From positions 1 to 64,000 of the forward strand of contig CAJFQQ010000008.1 of the NCBI GenBank assembly GCA_904419145.1: a stretch of DNA of 64,000 nucleotides, read 5' to 3'. The DNA is from an uncultured Oscillospiraceae bacterium. GTDB lineage: Bacteria > Bacillota > Clostridia > Oscillospirales > Oscillospiraceae. The position numbers and the translations under genes were made by a program. Positions 56,053 through 62,433 of the stretch are shown one piece after another (the first letter of the stretch is position 1; each line of letters starts with the position of its first letter). The notes beneath the pieces are model-generated. The model was not told the origin of the DNA. It saw nothing but the letters and a program-made list of their open reading frames with translations, and did no database searches.

Positions 56053-56225
56053 CCAACATTTCGTATAAAAATCTCTCTGGCATCTGGGACTGCTTTTCAA
56101 CTTTTGTCCCGGCGCCCCGTAGACCAGGGTTCCGCTACACCGGAAGCCAGTTCTTCTCATACGCGTTATGCCAACATAAATAGTTATCCTCCTCTGTGGG
56201 AGGTGCTAAATATAAAAGGGAGAAA

Positions 56226-56684
56226 ATGGAAGAGAAAAGAACCTGTGAATTTTGCGGTGCGGAGATGGATGCTCAGGCGGTTGTATGCCCCAGCTGCGGA
56301 AAAACTCCGACAGCCAAGGATCCAACTAAAAAATTTTGCAAACATTGCGGCGCCCCTATCGACAAGGATTGTGTTGTGTGTCCCAAGTGTGGAAAACAGG
56401 TAGAAGAACTCCATACACAGCAGCCCCAAGTCGTCATTAACAATACCAATAGCAATGTTGCCAACGCCAATGCCAATGTCGCTTCTGGAGCTATGCCGAA
56501 AGCGAAAAACAAGTGGGTTGCATTTTTGCTGTGCTTCTTCCTGGGTTTTATTGGTGCACACAAGTTTTACGAAGGGAAAATCCTTTTGGGGATCGTATAT
56601 ATCTTTACCGGCGGTATTTTCGGGATCGGCATCTTGGTGGATCTGATTCGTCTCCTCTTCAAGCCAAATCCTTATTATGTTTGA
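56226..56684 (+). CDS. TM2-domain protein with two zinc ribbons
   Basis: A 152-residue protein. Two zinc ribbons (CEFCG/CPSCG at about 6-25 and CKHCG/CPKCG at about 38-58) are followed by an Asn/Ala-rich linker. A TM2 domain (about 92-145) ends it, with CFFLGFIGAHKFYEGK and a second membrane helix. This is a common bacterial pattern of unknown role. GGGAGAAA precedes the ATG at 56226. It is monocistronic. Confidence 0.9.
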   Translation: MEEKRTCEFCGAEMDAQAVVCPSCGKTPTAKDPTKKFCKHCGAPIDKDCVVCPKCGKQVEELHTQQPQVVINNTNSNVANANANVASGAMPKAKNKWVAFLLCFFLGFIGAHKFYEGKILLGIVYIFTGGIFGIGILVDLIRLLFKPNPYYV

Positions 56685-56777: not shown

Positions 56778-58493
56778 TTATCCCAGCGCCGTCACAAAGC
56801 GGCTCAAAAATTCCTGACCCTCTTGGCGGCATATGGCAGCCTGAGGGCTGCAATCGTCCCGCAACAAACCGTGCCGCCAGGCGTCCTCCACGTATTGAGC
56901 CGCCCAGGGATGTGACAGGGCATCCACCCATCCAGGCGCTTGGCCGTCCTGCACAATGGGGATCTCTGCGTCTGCTGCGTCCAGATACCGCTCTGCCAGC
57001 ACCGCTGCCTCCTCCCATGTGATACAGTGGGTTGGGGCAAACATACCTTCGGCTTTACCGCCAACGATCCCCAGCTCCACAGCCCATACAATATCCGGAA
57101 CATACCAGTTGAAGGGGAATACATCGTCAAACGGCATCCCCCATGTGTCCGCCTGGGCGCCCACCGCCTGCCGCAGCATGGCGATAAAGCGGCCCCGGGA
57201 CAGAGGCGCCTGGGGCTGCTCCGCCGCAGAGAAGGGCTCCTGCCGCGCCAGTAGGGCTTCTACTGCGGTATCCCGGCCGGCCAGATAGTCCTCCAGCGTC
57301 TGCGGCACCTCCCAGTCCGGCTGGATGGCTGTGACGCCCAGTCCAACAGCGCACTCCAGGTAGTCCGCCAGGGTGATATACTTCGTGGAGCACTGAACCT
57401 GGATGCCGCTGTTTGGCAGGCGGAACGAGCCCACACTGCCGAAGTGATCCACGCTGCCGCTTGTGGCCTCTCCCGCGAGATAGCCGCCCATCTCCCGGAT
57501 CTCCATGGCGTTGATGGCGGCGGAGGAGAAGGTGGCCTCCCCCACCAGGCCCCAGACCTCCACCGCTCCGCTGCGGACCATGGGAGCCAGGAGCATCAGA
57601 ATGGGAACCAGCACCCCGTCGGAGCCGCCGCTGTTGTTGCGCAGGTCGATGAGGACCTTGTCATAGTCCTTGGCAGACAGGTCCTCTGCCACCTGGGCAG
57701 CAAAGGTCTCCATGGGCAGCTCCGGGTCCTCCTGGCAAGTGTTGAACTGGATGTAGTAGGCATCCCCAAGATCCAGGGAGAAGTAGTAGCGGTCCTGGGC
57801 CGCGGTGGCCGGGACCTGCGTGCGCCGGCTACTCAGCTGCACCACCGCGGGCCAGGCGGCATCGTCCGAGGCGCTCAGCGCCGACAGTACCACCTCGGCC
57901 TCTTCCCCATCCGGCCCGGTAAGGGCCAGGTGCAGCTCCGCTCCGGCGTCCACCACCCCGGTATAGGCCAGCACCTCCGCCGAGGCGATGCACTGGCGCA
58001 CCTGACGGCGCAGCTTGATGGGGTTGTCACTGCTGAGAAGGCCCCCCAGCTTGTCGCAGACCTGCCCCATGGTCTGGCCGTTCAGCGCCTCGATGGTCCA
58101 GCCCAGGTAGGCCGCCTCTGTCTCCGGCAGGCCGGTGACCACCCAGGCCCCGTCGAACCAGCGGATGGAAAACGGGAACATGCTCCCACTGCTGAGCACG
58201 CCGCTGATGTTCAGGCTGGTATGGGAGTCCCCGATCATCGCCACCAGGGACTGGAGATCCAGGGCAAAGGTGGCGTCGTCCACCGCGGCGAGGCGGCCCT
58301 CGATCTCCGCCTTTTTCGCCAACAGGACCTCCTCGGCGGCATTGGCAAACAGATTGGGGTGGTACTCCTTCAGGGCCTCATACAGGGTATCCAGGTCCTC
58401 CCGGCGCTGGGCGGCGGTGTCCTCTCCGGCGGCATAGGCCGGGACAGACAGTACCATCAGCAGAGCAAGAAACAGGGAAACAGCGCGTCGCAT
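56778..58493 (-). CDS. Exported S41-type peptidase with C-terminal SLH-like domains
   Basis: A 571-residue exported protein with a signal peptide (FLALLMVLSVPAYAAG). Residues about 30-420 form an S41 (tail-specific protease/Tricorn core) domain: SLVAMIGDSHTSL, the DLRNNSGGS segment and the Ser of ATFSSAA, plus GEATSG. Residues about 440-560 hold SLH-like repeats (FPFNWYVPDIVWAVELGIVGG with CITWEEAAVLAERYL; the last part lacks a clear GxF..P motif). It probably trims or processes surface peptides while bound to wall polymer. AAGGAG lies 8 nt before the ATG. Confidence 0.85.
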   Translation of the reverse strand: MRRAVSLFLALLMVLSVPAYAAGEDTAAQRREDLDTLYEALKEYHPNLFANAAEEVLLAKKAEIEGRLAAVDDATFALDLQSLVAMIGDSHTSLNISGVLSSGSMFPFSIRWFDGAWVVTGLPETEAAYLGWTIEALNGQTMGQVCDKLGGLLSSDNPIKLRRQVRQCIASAEVLAYTGVVDAGAELHLALTGPDGEEAEVVLSALSASDDAAWPAVVQLSSRRTQVPATAAQDRYYFSLDLGDAYYIQFNTCQEDPELPMETFAAQVAEDLSAKDYDKVLIDLRNNSGGSDGVLVPILMLLAPMVRSGAVEVWGLVGEATFSSAAINAMEIREMGGYLAGEATSGSVDHFGSVGSFRLPNSGIQVQCSTKYITLADYLECAVGLGVTAIQPDWEVPQTLEDYLAGRDTAVEALLARQEPFSAAEQPQAPLSRGRFIAMLRQAVGAQADTWGMPFDDVFPFNWYVPDIVWAVELGIVGGKAEGMFAPTHCITWEEAAVLAERYLDAADAEIPIVQDGQAPGWVDALSHPWAAQYVEDAWRHGLLRDDCSPQAAICRQEGQEFLSRFVTALG

Positions 58494-58583: not shown

Positions 58584-58621
58584 AAAAAGGAAGCGAGGTC
58601 CGGGAAGTTCCCGAACCTCGC
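58584..58621 (-). terminator. Terminator after the acidic repeat protein gene
   Basis: GCGAGGT(T)CGGGAA/TTCCCG(G)ACCTCGC with one mismatch, and five T on the minus strand. Confidence 0.8.
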
Positions 58622-58655: not shown

Positions 58656-59201
58656 TCAATTCTGCTCCTCTTTCCCCTCGATATCAATGGTATCCACCAC
58701 CGGCGCATCATCGTGGGGGTTATATTGCATATCGTTGAGGGCGTAGTCGATCTCGTCAGAGACCACCGGATGCTCCTTCTTCCGGGTCTGCTCCTCCTTG
58801 CCCTCGGTGTCGATCGTATCCACCACCGGCGCGTCGTCATGGGGGTTATACTTCATATCGTTGAGGGCGTAATCGATCTCGTCGGAGACCTCCATCTCCT
58901 CATCTTTATTACTGCTGCCTTCCCGCAGGCTCCGCAGCTCCTCCCGCATCTGGGCGATCTTCGCAGCAGAGGCATCAATCTTCTGGTGCCAGGGCAGATA
59001 AGCCCCGATATCCCCCTCGCTGCCGGAGGCATAGTCCTGGTGGCAGAGCTTTCCAAGCTCAATCTGTGCCTTCTTGATCTTATCCTGCTCCGCGGCGATC
59101 TGCAGGTTCAGCTTCGCGCTCTTGGCCGCGTTCTTCGCCAGCTCCGCGGCGGCAGCGGCAGTCTCCGTCGCTTTTTCCTTAATGCTGTCCATCCATTCCA
59201 C
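58656..59201 (-). CDS. Acidic coiled-coil protein with a tandem C-terminal motif
   Basis: A 181-residue soluble protein with an alanine-rich N-terminal helix, a coiled coil (about 22-95, KLNLQIAAEQDKIKKAQIE) and a C-terminal part of two copies of a 34-37-residue acidic unit. Each copy has VSDEIDYALNDM, YNPHDDAPVVDTID and EGKEEQ; they are separated by a basic TRKKEHP spacer. No signal or membrane segment. The first codon is GTG at 59201; an ATG at 59192 is also possible. No family recognised. It follows proS on the same strand. Confidence 0.72.
   Translation of the reverse strand: MEWMDSIKEKATETAAAAAELAKNAAKSAKLNLQIAAEQDKIKKAQIELGKLCHQDYASGSEGDIGAYLPWHQKIDASAAKIAQMREELRSLREGSSNKDEEMEVSDEIDYALNDMKYNPHDDAPVVDTIDTEGKEEQTRKKEHPVVSDEIDYALNDMQYNPHDDAPVVDTIDIEGKEEQN
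58680..58890. repeat. Intragenic direct repeat (two copies of about 85 bp)
   Basis: The unit at about 58681-58765 recurs at about 58798-58882 with roughly nine of ten bases identical, most changes being at third codon positions. The copies encode the duplicated acidic motif. The silent divergence shows that the duplication is not brand new. Confidence 0.8.
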
Positions 59202-59255: not shown

Positions 59256-60698
59256 TCAATAGGCCACGCCCCAGATGATATCCGTCTCGCACTCCTTGCC
59301 GCAGACCGGGCACTTGCCCATACTCTTTCTCTGCTGGAGCGGCATGCAGCGGGAGGTAACCCCCACCTTCTCCTTCATGGCCAGCTCGCACTCCAGGGAA
59401 CCGCACCACTTGGTCTTGACGAATCCGCCGTTGTTCTTCTCCAGGATCGCCTTGACCTCCTCCCAGGTCTCTGCCTCGAAGGAGTTGTCCTCCAGATTCT
59501 TCTTGGCCATGGCGAACATGTTGTCGTGGATGGCGTCCAGCAGGGACGTCACCGTCTCCTCCAGCGCCTCCAGGGGGACGAAGGTCTTTTCCCCGGTATC
59601 CCGGCGGGCGATGCAGCACTGGTTCTTCTCCATATCCTTGGGGCCGATCTCCACCCGGAGGGGCACGCCCCGCATCTCGTACTCTGCGAACTTCCAGCCC
59701 GGGCTCTGCTCGCTCTCGTCGATCTTCACCCGGACACCGGCCGCCTGGAGCCGGTCGTAGAGGCCGCGGGCCGCCTCCAGCACTCCCTCCTTATGCTGGG
59801 CCACCGGGATCACCACCGCCTGGACGGGGGCGATGCGGGGCGGCAGCACCAGGCCGTTGTCATCGCCGTGGGTCATGATAATGCCGCCGATCAGGCGGGT
59901 GGACACGCCCCAGCTGGTCTGATGGGGATAGCTGAGGGTGTTGTTCTTGTCTGCAAAGGTGATGTCAAAGGCCCGGGCGAACCCGTCGCCGAAGTAGTGG
60001 CTGGTACCGGCCTGGAGGGCCTTCTTGTCGTGCATCATGCACTCCACGGTGTAGGTCCTCTCCGCGCCGTTGAACTTCTCCTTGTCGGTCTTGACGCCCC
60101 GGGTCACCGGCATGGCCAGCACGTTCTCACAGAAGTCGGCGTAGATATTCAGCATCCGCACCGTCTCCTCCACGGCCTCCTCCGCCGTGGCGTGCATGGT
60201 GTGGCCCTCCTGCCACAGGAATTCCCGGTGGCGCAGGAAGGGGCGGCTGGTCTTCTCCCAGCGCAGCACGCTGCACCACTGGTTATAGAGCTTGGGCAGA
60301 TCCCGCCAGGAGTGGATGATATTCTTGTAGTGCTCGCAGAACAGCGTCTCGCTGGTGGGGCGGATGCAGCAGCGCTCCTCCAGCTTCTCACTGCCGCCCA
60401 TGGTGACCCATGCGCACTCGGGAGCAAACCCCTCCACGTGGTCCTTCTCCTTCTGCAGGAGGCTCTCGGGGATCAGCATGGGCAGGTATACGTTTTCATG
60501 GCCGGTCTTTTTGAACTCCGCGTCCATGATGCGCTGAATATTTTCCCAAATGGCGTAGCCATAGGGACGGTAGATGAACATGCCCTTGATGCTGGAGTAG
60601 TCGATGAGCTCCGCCTTGGTGCACACATCGGTAAACCACTGGGCAAAATCTACATCCCGGGAGGTGATGGCCTCCACCTGTTTCTTGTCCTTCGCCAT
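59256..60698 (-). CDS. proS: Proline-tRNA ligase, archaeal/eukaryotic-type (short, no INS domain)
   Basis: A 480-residue class II synthetase. The motif-2 region ([16 protein letters not shown]), [11 protein letters not shown] and the [14 protein letters not shown] segment are intact. The bacterial editing (INS) domain is absent. The C-terminal zinc site uses Cys pairs in [12 protein letters not shown] and the protein ends in the tyrosine of WGVAY, as in the eukaryote/archaeon-like group. The ATG at 60698 has GAGGAG 8 nt upstream. It is monocistronic, from its own promoter. Confidence 0.96.
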
Positions 60699-60749
60699 AG
60701 TATCTCTCCTCATATTATATAAAAAGATAGCGTATCTATCTAAGTTTTT

Positions 60750-61971: not shown

Positions 61972-62433
61972 TTACTTGCCGCCCGTAAACGGGCCATTTG
62001 ACGGGATCCTCAGTTGTTCTCCCGTCTCGTCCTCTTTTTGCTGGTTTCTCACATATTCTGTAATTCAGTTCTCGTTCCTCCCTACTGTATCCACATAGTA
62101 CCCTCTACACCAAAATTCCCGGTTTCGGTACTTGTATTTCAGCTCGCCGAATTGCTCATACAGCATCGTGCTGCTCTTCCCTTTCAGATACCCCATAAAG
62201 TACGACACCGAGATTTTCGGCGGTATCTCCACAAACAGGTGGATATGGTTGGGGCACGCTTCCGCTTCTATGATCCTTACCCCTTTCCACTCGCACAACT
62301 GCCGCAGTATCTTCCCTATTGCCGCTTTCTTTTCTTTGTAAAATACTTTCCTGCGGTACTTCGGCGCAAATACAATATGATATTTGCAATTCCATCGCGT
62401 ATGAGATAAACTATTCATGTCATTCAGTCCCAT
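61972..62433 (-). pseudogene. tnpA: IS200/IS605-family transposase TnpA with in-frame TGA
   Basis: The Y1 HUH transposase frame runs 122 residues from 62433 to a TGA at 62067-62065. The HUH pair His63-His65 is in NHIHLFVE. The frame continues past the stop for 31 more codons to a TAA (61972), with TEYVRNQ immediately after the TGA. Those residues include the family's catalytic Tyr (position 127) and the Gln four residues later (131). A product ending at 122 therefore lacks the nucleophile and should be inactive unless the TGA is read through. The 5' end is complete, with GGGAGGG 7 nt before the ATG, and that site is hidden in a hairpin. Confidence 0.88.

Follow-up and report, generated by a model that had tools for sequence, protein, structure and literature searches.

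Introduction

CT398, HP0958 (also named FlgZ), and MSMEG_4306 are the closest described counterparts of the protein analyzed here, each built of antiparallel helices that form a hairpin, with a further module at the C terminus, a layout like that of the family to which our protein belongs. In a published study (PMC5947703), HP0958 and CT398 are described as coiled-coil zinc-ribbon proteins binding RpoN and FliH, and the hairpin of MSMEG_4306 spans residues 5-176. The hairpin of the family studied here has ~95 residues.

The gene of interest lies in a window, i.e., the whole stretch of 64,000 nucleotides that was analyzed, from an uncultured Oscillospiraceae bacterium. The order of parts in CT398 and HP0958, hairpin and then zinc ribbon, is the same in the zinc-ribbon branch of the window family, whereas the window protein itself has no C-terminal zinc ribbon. 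PF02591, which we take to be the Pfam model for the CT398/HP0958 family, was absent among the listed Pfam hits for the sequences scanned, and CT398 (4ilo) came at rank 49 in Foldseek with an E value of 1.4. The likeness to CT398 and HP0958 is best described as an analogy of layout and not as membership. Nearer relatives were found in the window genome itself (G000), where the zinc-ribbon paralogs at C9:52826 and C7:36323 carry the same N-terminal hairpin domain (31% identity for the C9 protein) but end in one (C9) and two (C7) zinc ribbons, with no acidic tail. In the acidic-tail members of genus g97, the hairpin is 49 to 55% identical to that of the window protein and the C-terminal tail is acidic as well, but the tails are devoid of the 42-residue unit described below and the genes lie behind lgt, not proS (5/5 loci).

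A tandem acidic repeat ends the hairpin protein

The hairpin-protein gene occupies positions 59201-58656 of the minus strand as an open ORF of 181 aa, running from a GTG start (59201-59199) to a TGA stop (58658-58656). The same GTG start is found in the ortholog from a congener (G009), in which the ATG lying 3 codons downstream is absent and an extra in-frame ATG occurs 7 codons upstream of the GTG. proS, encoding prolyl-tRNA synthetase (59256..60713, minus strand), lies upstream on the same strand, its stop codon being 54 bp from the hairpin gene. Just 3' of the gene is an intrinsic-terminator-like hairpin of 13 pairs, 9 of them G-C (58593..58621, minus strand; consensus match only), followed downstream by the gene of an S41-peptidase/S-layer-homology protein (56778..58493, minus strand) that adjoins the G009 ortholog too.

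The helical hairpin domain common to the family covers residues 1-95 (58917..59201, minus strand), as delimited with AlphaFold2. Two repeat units, defined by Tandem Repeats Finder and codon comparison, make up most of the remainder: unit 1, residues 105-146 (VSDEIDYALNDMKYNPHDDAPVVDTIDTEGKEEQTRKKEHPV; 58764..58889, minus strand), and unit 2, residues 147-181 (VSDEIDYALNDMQYNPHDDAPVVDTIDIEGKEEQN; 58659..58763, minus strand). Tandem Repeats Finder reported a 126-bp period at 58661-58890, with 1.8 copies, 87% matches, no indels, and a score of 369. The tandem acidic motif claimed in an earlier note on this DNA was thus confirmed by the open ORF, by this repeat, and by the two occurrences of SDEIDYALNDM in the six-frame translation of the window. 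Two details of that description were amended: the two copies are present, but the unit is 42 residues long and the second copy ends at residue 35 of the unit, cut by the stop codon; and a predicted helical hairpin does precede the repeats, as the announced coiled coil, but they start ~10 residues past it and not at once. The tail contains 31% Asp/Glu, 8% Lys/Arg, and no Cys, the whole protein having a single Cys and no CxxC. Genome-wide, exact matches to the DNA pattern of the NPHDDAP type number two, both in the repeats of the hairpin gene. A NPHDDAP-like site with 1 mismatch elsewhere in the same genome (C17) was rejected as being at control level (3 matches versus 5 for the reversed pattern).

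The AlphaFold2 model, computed from a two-sequence alignment (mean pLDDT, 62; pTM, 0.43), predicts helices at residues 2-59 and 65-93, a block with pLDDT mostly between 74 and 92. From residue 96 onward, pLDDT falls below 50, with short low-confidence helices at residues 107-117 and 149-157 that correspond to the DEIDYALNDM piece of each unit. With this model of middling confidence, Foldseek against the PDB returned no match at an E value of ≤0.001 (best, 0.43), and a sequence search of the PDB gave one hit at an E value of ≤1, a seryl-tRNA ligase (0.18). No signal peptide or membrane helix was seen by eye in the window protein.

The tail is under purifying selection in two species

Over their 35 shared codons, the two window copies differ by 15 bases, of which 12 are silent and 3 amino acid changing, with 12 of the 15 at third positions, giving a dN/dS of 0.036 (Nei-Gojobori, 35 codons). 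Random substitution, with the number of changes and the transition share kept as observed, would produce a mean of 10.0 residue changes, compared with the 3 seen (p ~1e-4). This codon comparison bears out the earlier proposal that the DNA has drifted silently while selection kept the protein. Within the ortholog, copy 1 and copy 2 are separated by 22 base differences and 5 residue changes, for 14.0 residues expected (15.5 silent and 6.5 changing differences by Nei-Gojobori count). Between the two species, copy 1 shows 10 base differences, all silent and at third positions, with 0 residue changes versus 6.6 expected, the protein being the same over its first 35 residues; copy 2, with 17 bases and 5 residues different for 11.0 residues expected, is looser. 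The dN/dS between species is 0.059 for the tail and 0.099 for the hairpin, the constraint on the tail being no weaker than that on the hairpin, in an analysis spanning two genomes and, for each unit, 35 codons. The tandem repeat is real and selected. Since both species share the residues that tell the copies apart (K or Q after NDM), the duplication predates the split of these two sister species. An assembly artefact was rejected, as both copies, each with its distinguishing residues, recur in the ortholog, which comes from a separate assembly.

This ortholog is the only one found, and the copy count in homologues, which the earlier note had proposed to check, likewise gave two for it. The contig scan, which detects close relatives only and may omit the genome of the window, had a single confirmed locus, on the G009 contig (uncultured Oscillospiraceae bacterium). 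With one genome compared per species, the full-protein search in the genus matched 8 of 11 genomes; the gene itself is found in the window genome and G009 only, the other six matching through zinc-ribbon relatives. Absence of the ORF from close strains had been named as speaking against the repeat, and such absence was found at the species level: among 10 congeners in which the DNA behind proS was read, the hairpin gene is present in G009 only and absent in 9, several of these nine being incomplete assemblies. Searched alone in 400 genomes of the bacterial family, the tail matched 34 at an E value of ≤1, strongly in the window genome and G009 only; the remaining 32 matches, with E values of 0.02 to 0.62, are counted by E value and not by single alignment. 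Phages and plasmids gave no match at an E value of 0.01, leaving a phage or plasmid origin unsupported. In viral contigs, six stretches matched a pattern, none being confirmed, and a search there with the DNA pattern of the tail core gave no exact hit.

A widespread unnamed family with variable tails shares the hairpin

A single-sequence search with the hairpin alone matched 261 of the 400 genomes of the bacterial family at an E value of ≤0.001 (best value outside the genus, 1.2e-24), and 76 of 197 genomes drawn at the order level (Oscillospirales), a set that includes genomes of the window's family, matched at ≤1e-6. The window hairpin was recovered with an E value of 4.1e-35 by a profile from 42 members, window protein included and hence not independent. 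By sequence similarity, the hairpin is a member of this family, the feature that marks membership, a hairpin domain of ~95 residues with an ELGKL core, being present in the window protein. Searches of Pfam and NCBIfam gave nothing above the curated cutoff for the window protein, and no family was matched at an E value of ≤0.001 by more than 2 of 38 members (best, 7.8e-5). Thus, the earlier statement that no family is recognized holds for named families but misses the unnamed one, widespread in 261 of 400 genomes. Among the paper titles listed, none was on the window protein or its hairpin family.

Of the 89 members that the hairpin HMM extracted, 8 have a terminal zinc ribbon and nearly all others an acidic low-complexity tail. 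In 15 of 20 loci fetched from the order-level search, Cys patterns resembling ribbons are present, frequently two or more. The window protein fits the acidic-tail branch, its acidic tail being present and a zinc ribbon absent. Its genome encodes at least three members of the family, namely, the window gene, the one-ribbon paralog (contig 9), and the two-ribbon paralog (contig 7), the last of which has a kinase gene with TPR repeats in its vicinity (protein kinase; L234, 588-3758).

The tails of relatives retain acidity but little sequence and change fast. The median Asp/Glu content is 37.5% in 67 tails, 22 of the 89 members having been dropped from the composition and repeat analyses (14 without the core pattern used for cutting the tail and 8 with ribbons). 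By shuffling, 17 of 63 tails contain internal repeats at a P value of ≤0.01, including those of the window protein and its ortholog, which score highest among the 63; several of the repeated tails are of a simple EEPAEE or EPCCCEEK type. A [PV][PV][VI][DE]T core is present in 7 of 67 tails, from about four lineages, versus a shuffled mean of 0.26, with several carriers being close kin and the window and ortholog accounting for 2 of the 7. Stretches in which hydrophobic and acidic residues alternate are found in 13 of 67 tails versus 1.2, this pattern and the core both having been picked after viewing the tails. Kinship to the whole unit was sought in 78 members (11 of the 89 dropped: window, ortholog, 8 ribbon members, and 1 with a very short tail), of which 7 scored at a P value of ≤0.05 for 3.9 expected, so that none is shown. 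The repeated binding motif or docking peptide suggested in the earlier note keeps its plausibility through a P-V-V-D/E-T core found in few relatives' tails, but the full unit does not recur. As judged from these comparisons, the window repeat is one lineage's duplication within a normally variable acidic tail. Among other tails, those of L195, L197, and L165 are built from acidic repeats that are rich in Cys, such as CCCEDEKKEDGE, and possibly metal binding, and that of L177 is rich in His and Glu.

Proposed function and alternatives

We propose a model in which the window gene encodes a cytosolic protein of the unnamed Oscillospirales family, made of an antiparallel helical hairpin, probably self-associating, and an acidic disordered tail. 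The ancestral tail would have consisted of the short helix-forming SDEIDYALNDM, the hydrophobic-acidic strand PHDDAPVVDTID, and a Lys/Glu spacer; a single duplication in the ancestor of the two sister species doubled it, and both copies have been retained by purifying selection. Each unit could act as a linear docking motif, and association of the hairpins, coupled to two units per chain, could allow a partner to be held in a multivalent manner. An adaptor of the cytosol that contacts its partner twice through the duplicated tail motif is our best-supported working reading, with a probability of about 0.45, in which we infer the docking and the multivalency, as well as the cytosolic place and the self-association, the disorder of the tail being taken from prediction.

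Several points call for reserve toward docking: the wide variation of tails elsewhere in the family would fit a tolerant acidic segment equally well, the whole unit has no detectable kinship to other tails, the selection is read from two genomes, copy 2 is looser than copy 1, and the structural model is of middling confidence. The tail could instead be a charge and solubility segment in which acidity alone matters, the duplication being a tolerated accident, as in relatives whose tails hold their acidity with little sequence and are internally repeated in 17 of 63 cases, several of the simple type. We hold this for rather unlikely, as copy 1 has no residue change for 6.6 expected, which indicates that its sequence and not only its charge was held, and as the window tail is constrained at least as much as the hairpin. 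Less probable still is a role in metal or thiol handling, in which Cys and His of the hairpin, together with His, Asp, and Cys of the tail, would bind a metal and stand in for the ribbon that the other branch carries. The zinc ribbons that end that branch, the Cys- or His-rich tails of several relatives, and the near restriction of Cys72 to ribbon-less members would speak for it. Cys72 is found in 78 of 86 ribbon-less members and 3 of 23 ribbon members, ribbon status being set by Cys pattern and at least one match (L249) resembling a Cys-rich tail instead. The window pair has no Cys72 and carries His72 with Cys53/His54, so that Cys72 is typical of the ribbon-less branch, not defining; by the predicted helix limits, Cys53 and His72 should lie across the hairpin from each other. 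Of the 28 members that lack Cys72, 4 carry Cys53, compared with none of the 81 members that have it, in counts that ignore relatedness and in which 2 of the 4 carriers are the window pair and 1 is a ribbon protein. This exclusivity is a lead only. The absence of Cys from the window tail weighs against the metal-binding role, as do the neglect of relatedness in the counts and the dependence of the ribbon calls on Cys patterns.

We are similarly skeptical of a helper of lipoprotein or envelope biogenesis acting with Lgt, of which the window copy would have been moved or transferred beside proS with its job kept. On the same strand, lgt lies ≤700 bp upstream in 46 of 80 family loci and farther upstream in 5 more, these loci being taken from the listed hairpin matches (the first 40 mostly the best ones) and hence not drawn at random from the 261 genomes; for one representative locus, a match to the Pfam LGT family was confirmed. 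No lgt was seen in the other 29, of which 11 have >4.7 kb of upstream sequence and 18 <1.6 kb, nor within ~4 kb in 20 further order-level loci, 18 of them outside the window's family. Likewise, in the window's genus (G002 and G005 excluded), the sequence read at nine lgt loci contains no member of the family. A hairpin tree nests the window pair inside the lgt-linked genus g97 (support, 96/80; with a long-branch warning), but an earlier hairpin tree did not resolve the pair, and topology tests rejected neither its grouping with the genus's zinc-ribbon paralogs (p-AU 0.056) nor that with eight lgt-less members (p-AU 0.122). In a quick lgt tree, the window's genus is far from the lgt-linked genera. 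Horizontal transfer of the window pair's gene is only suggested by these trees, and the lack of a visible signal peptide or membrane helix further disfavors a helper of Lgt. The two genes that often precede lgt in family loci, presumably M16-peptidase-like, would agree with an envelope role; a 90-residue piece of one of them gave no Pfam hit. In L102-L141, a frequent gene order is two paralogous genes, lgt, and the hairpin gene.

To return to the adaptor reading, it could be extended to the family as a whole, a large one in gut Oscillospirales, in which the C-terminal zinc ribbon and the disordered acidic tail may have been swapped for one another, the latter going along with a conserved Cys of the hairpin and, in many genera, with a place behind lgt, while the tail of the window lineage became a selected, duplicated docking motif. 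We consider this scenario possible, if rather doubtful. Taken alone, the repeat is a modest lineage-specific tail duplication, although it offers an example of a bacterial tail, predicted to be disordered, whose sequence is held while those of relatives vary. The unnamed hairpin family is the more useful result, as its function is testable in cultured relatives.

Genomic neighborhood

The window gene lies behind proS and not behind lgt, the latter position being common in the family without defining it. The proximity of proS is probably incidental because many relatives sit behind lgt. An IS200-like transposase gene (62068-62433, minus strand; Pfam Y1_Tnp, E value of 2.2e-36) lies ~1.4 kb upstream of proS and could have a bearing on local rearrangement. 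Past the S41-peptidase/S-layer-homology gene, on the opposite strand, the window encodes a protein with a zinc ribbon and a TM2 domain (56196-56681, plus strand).
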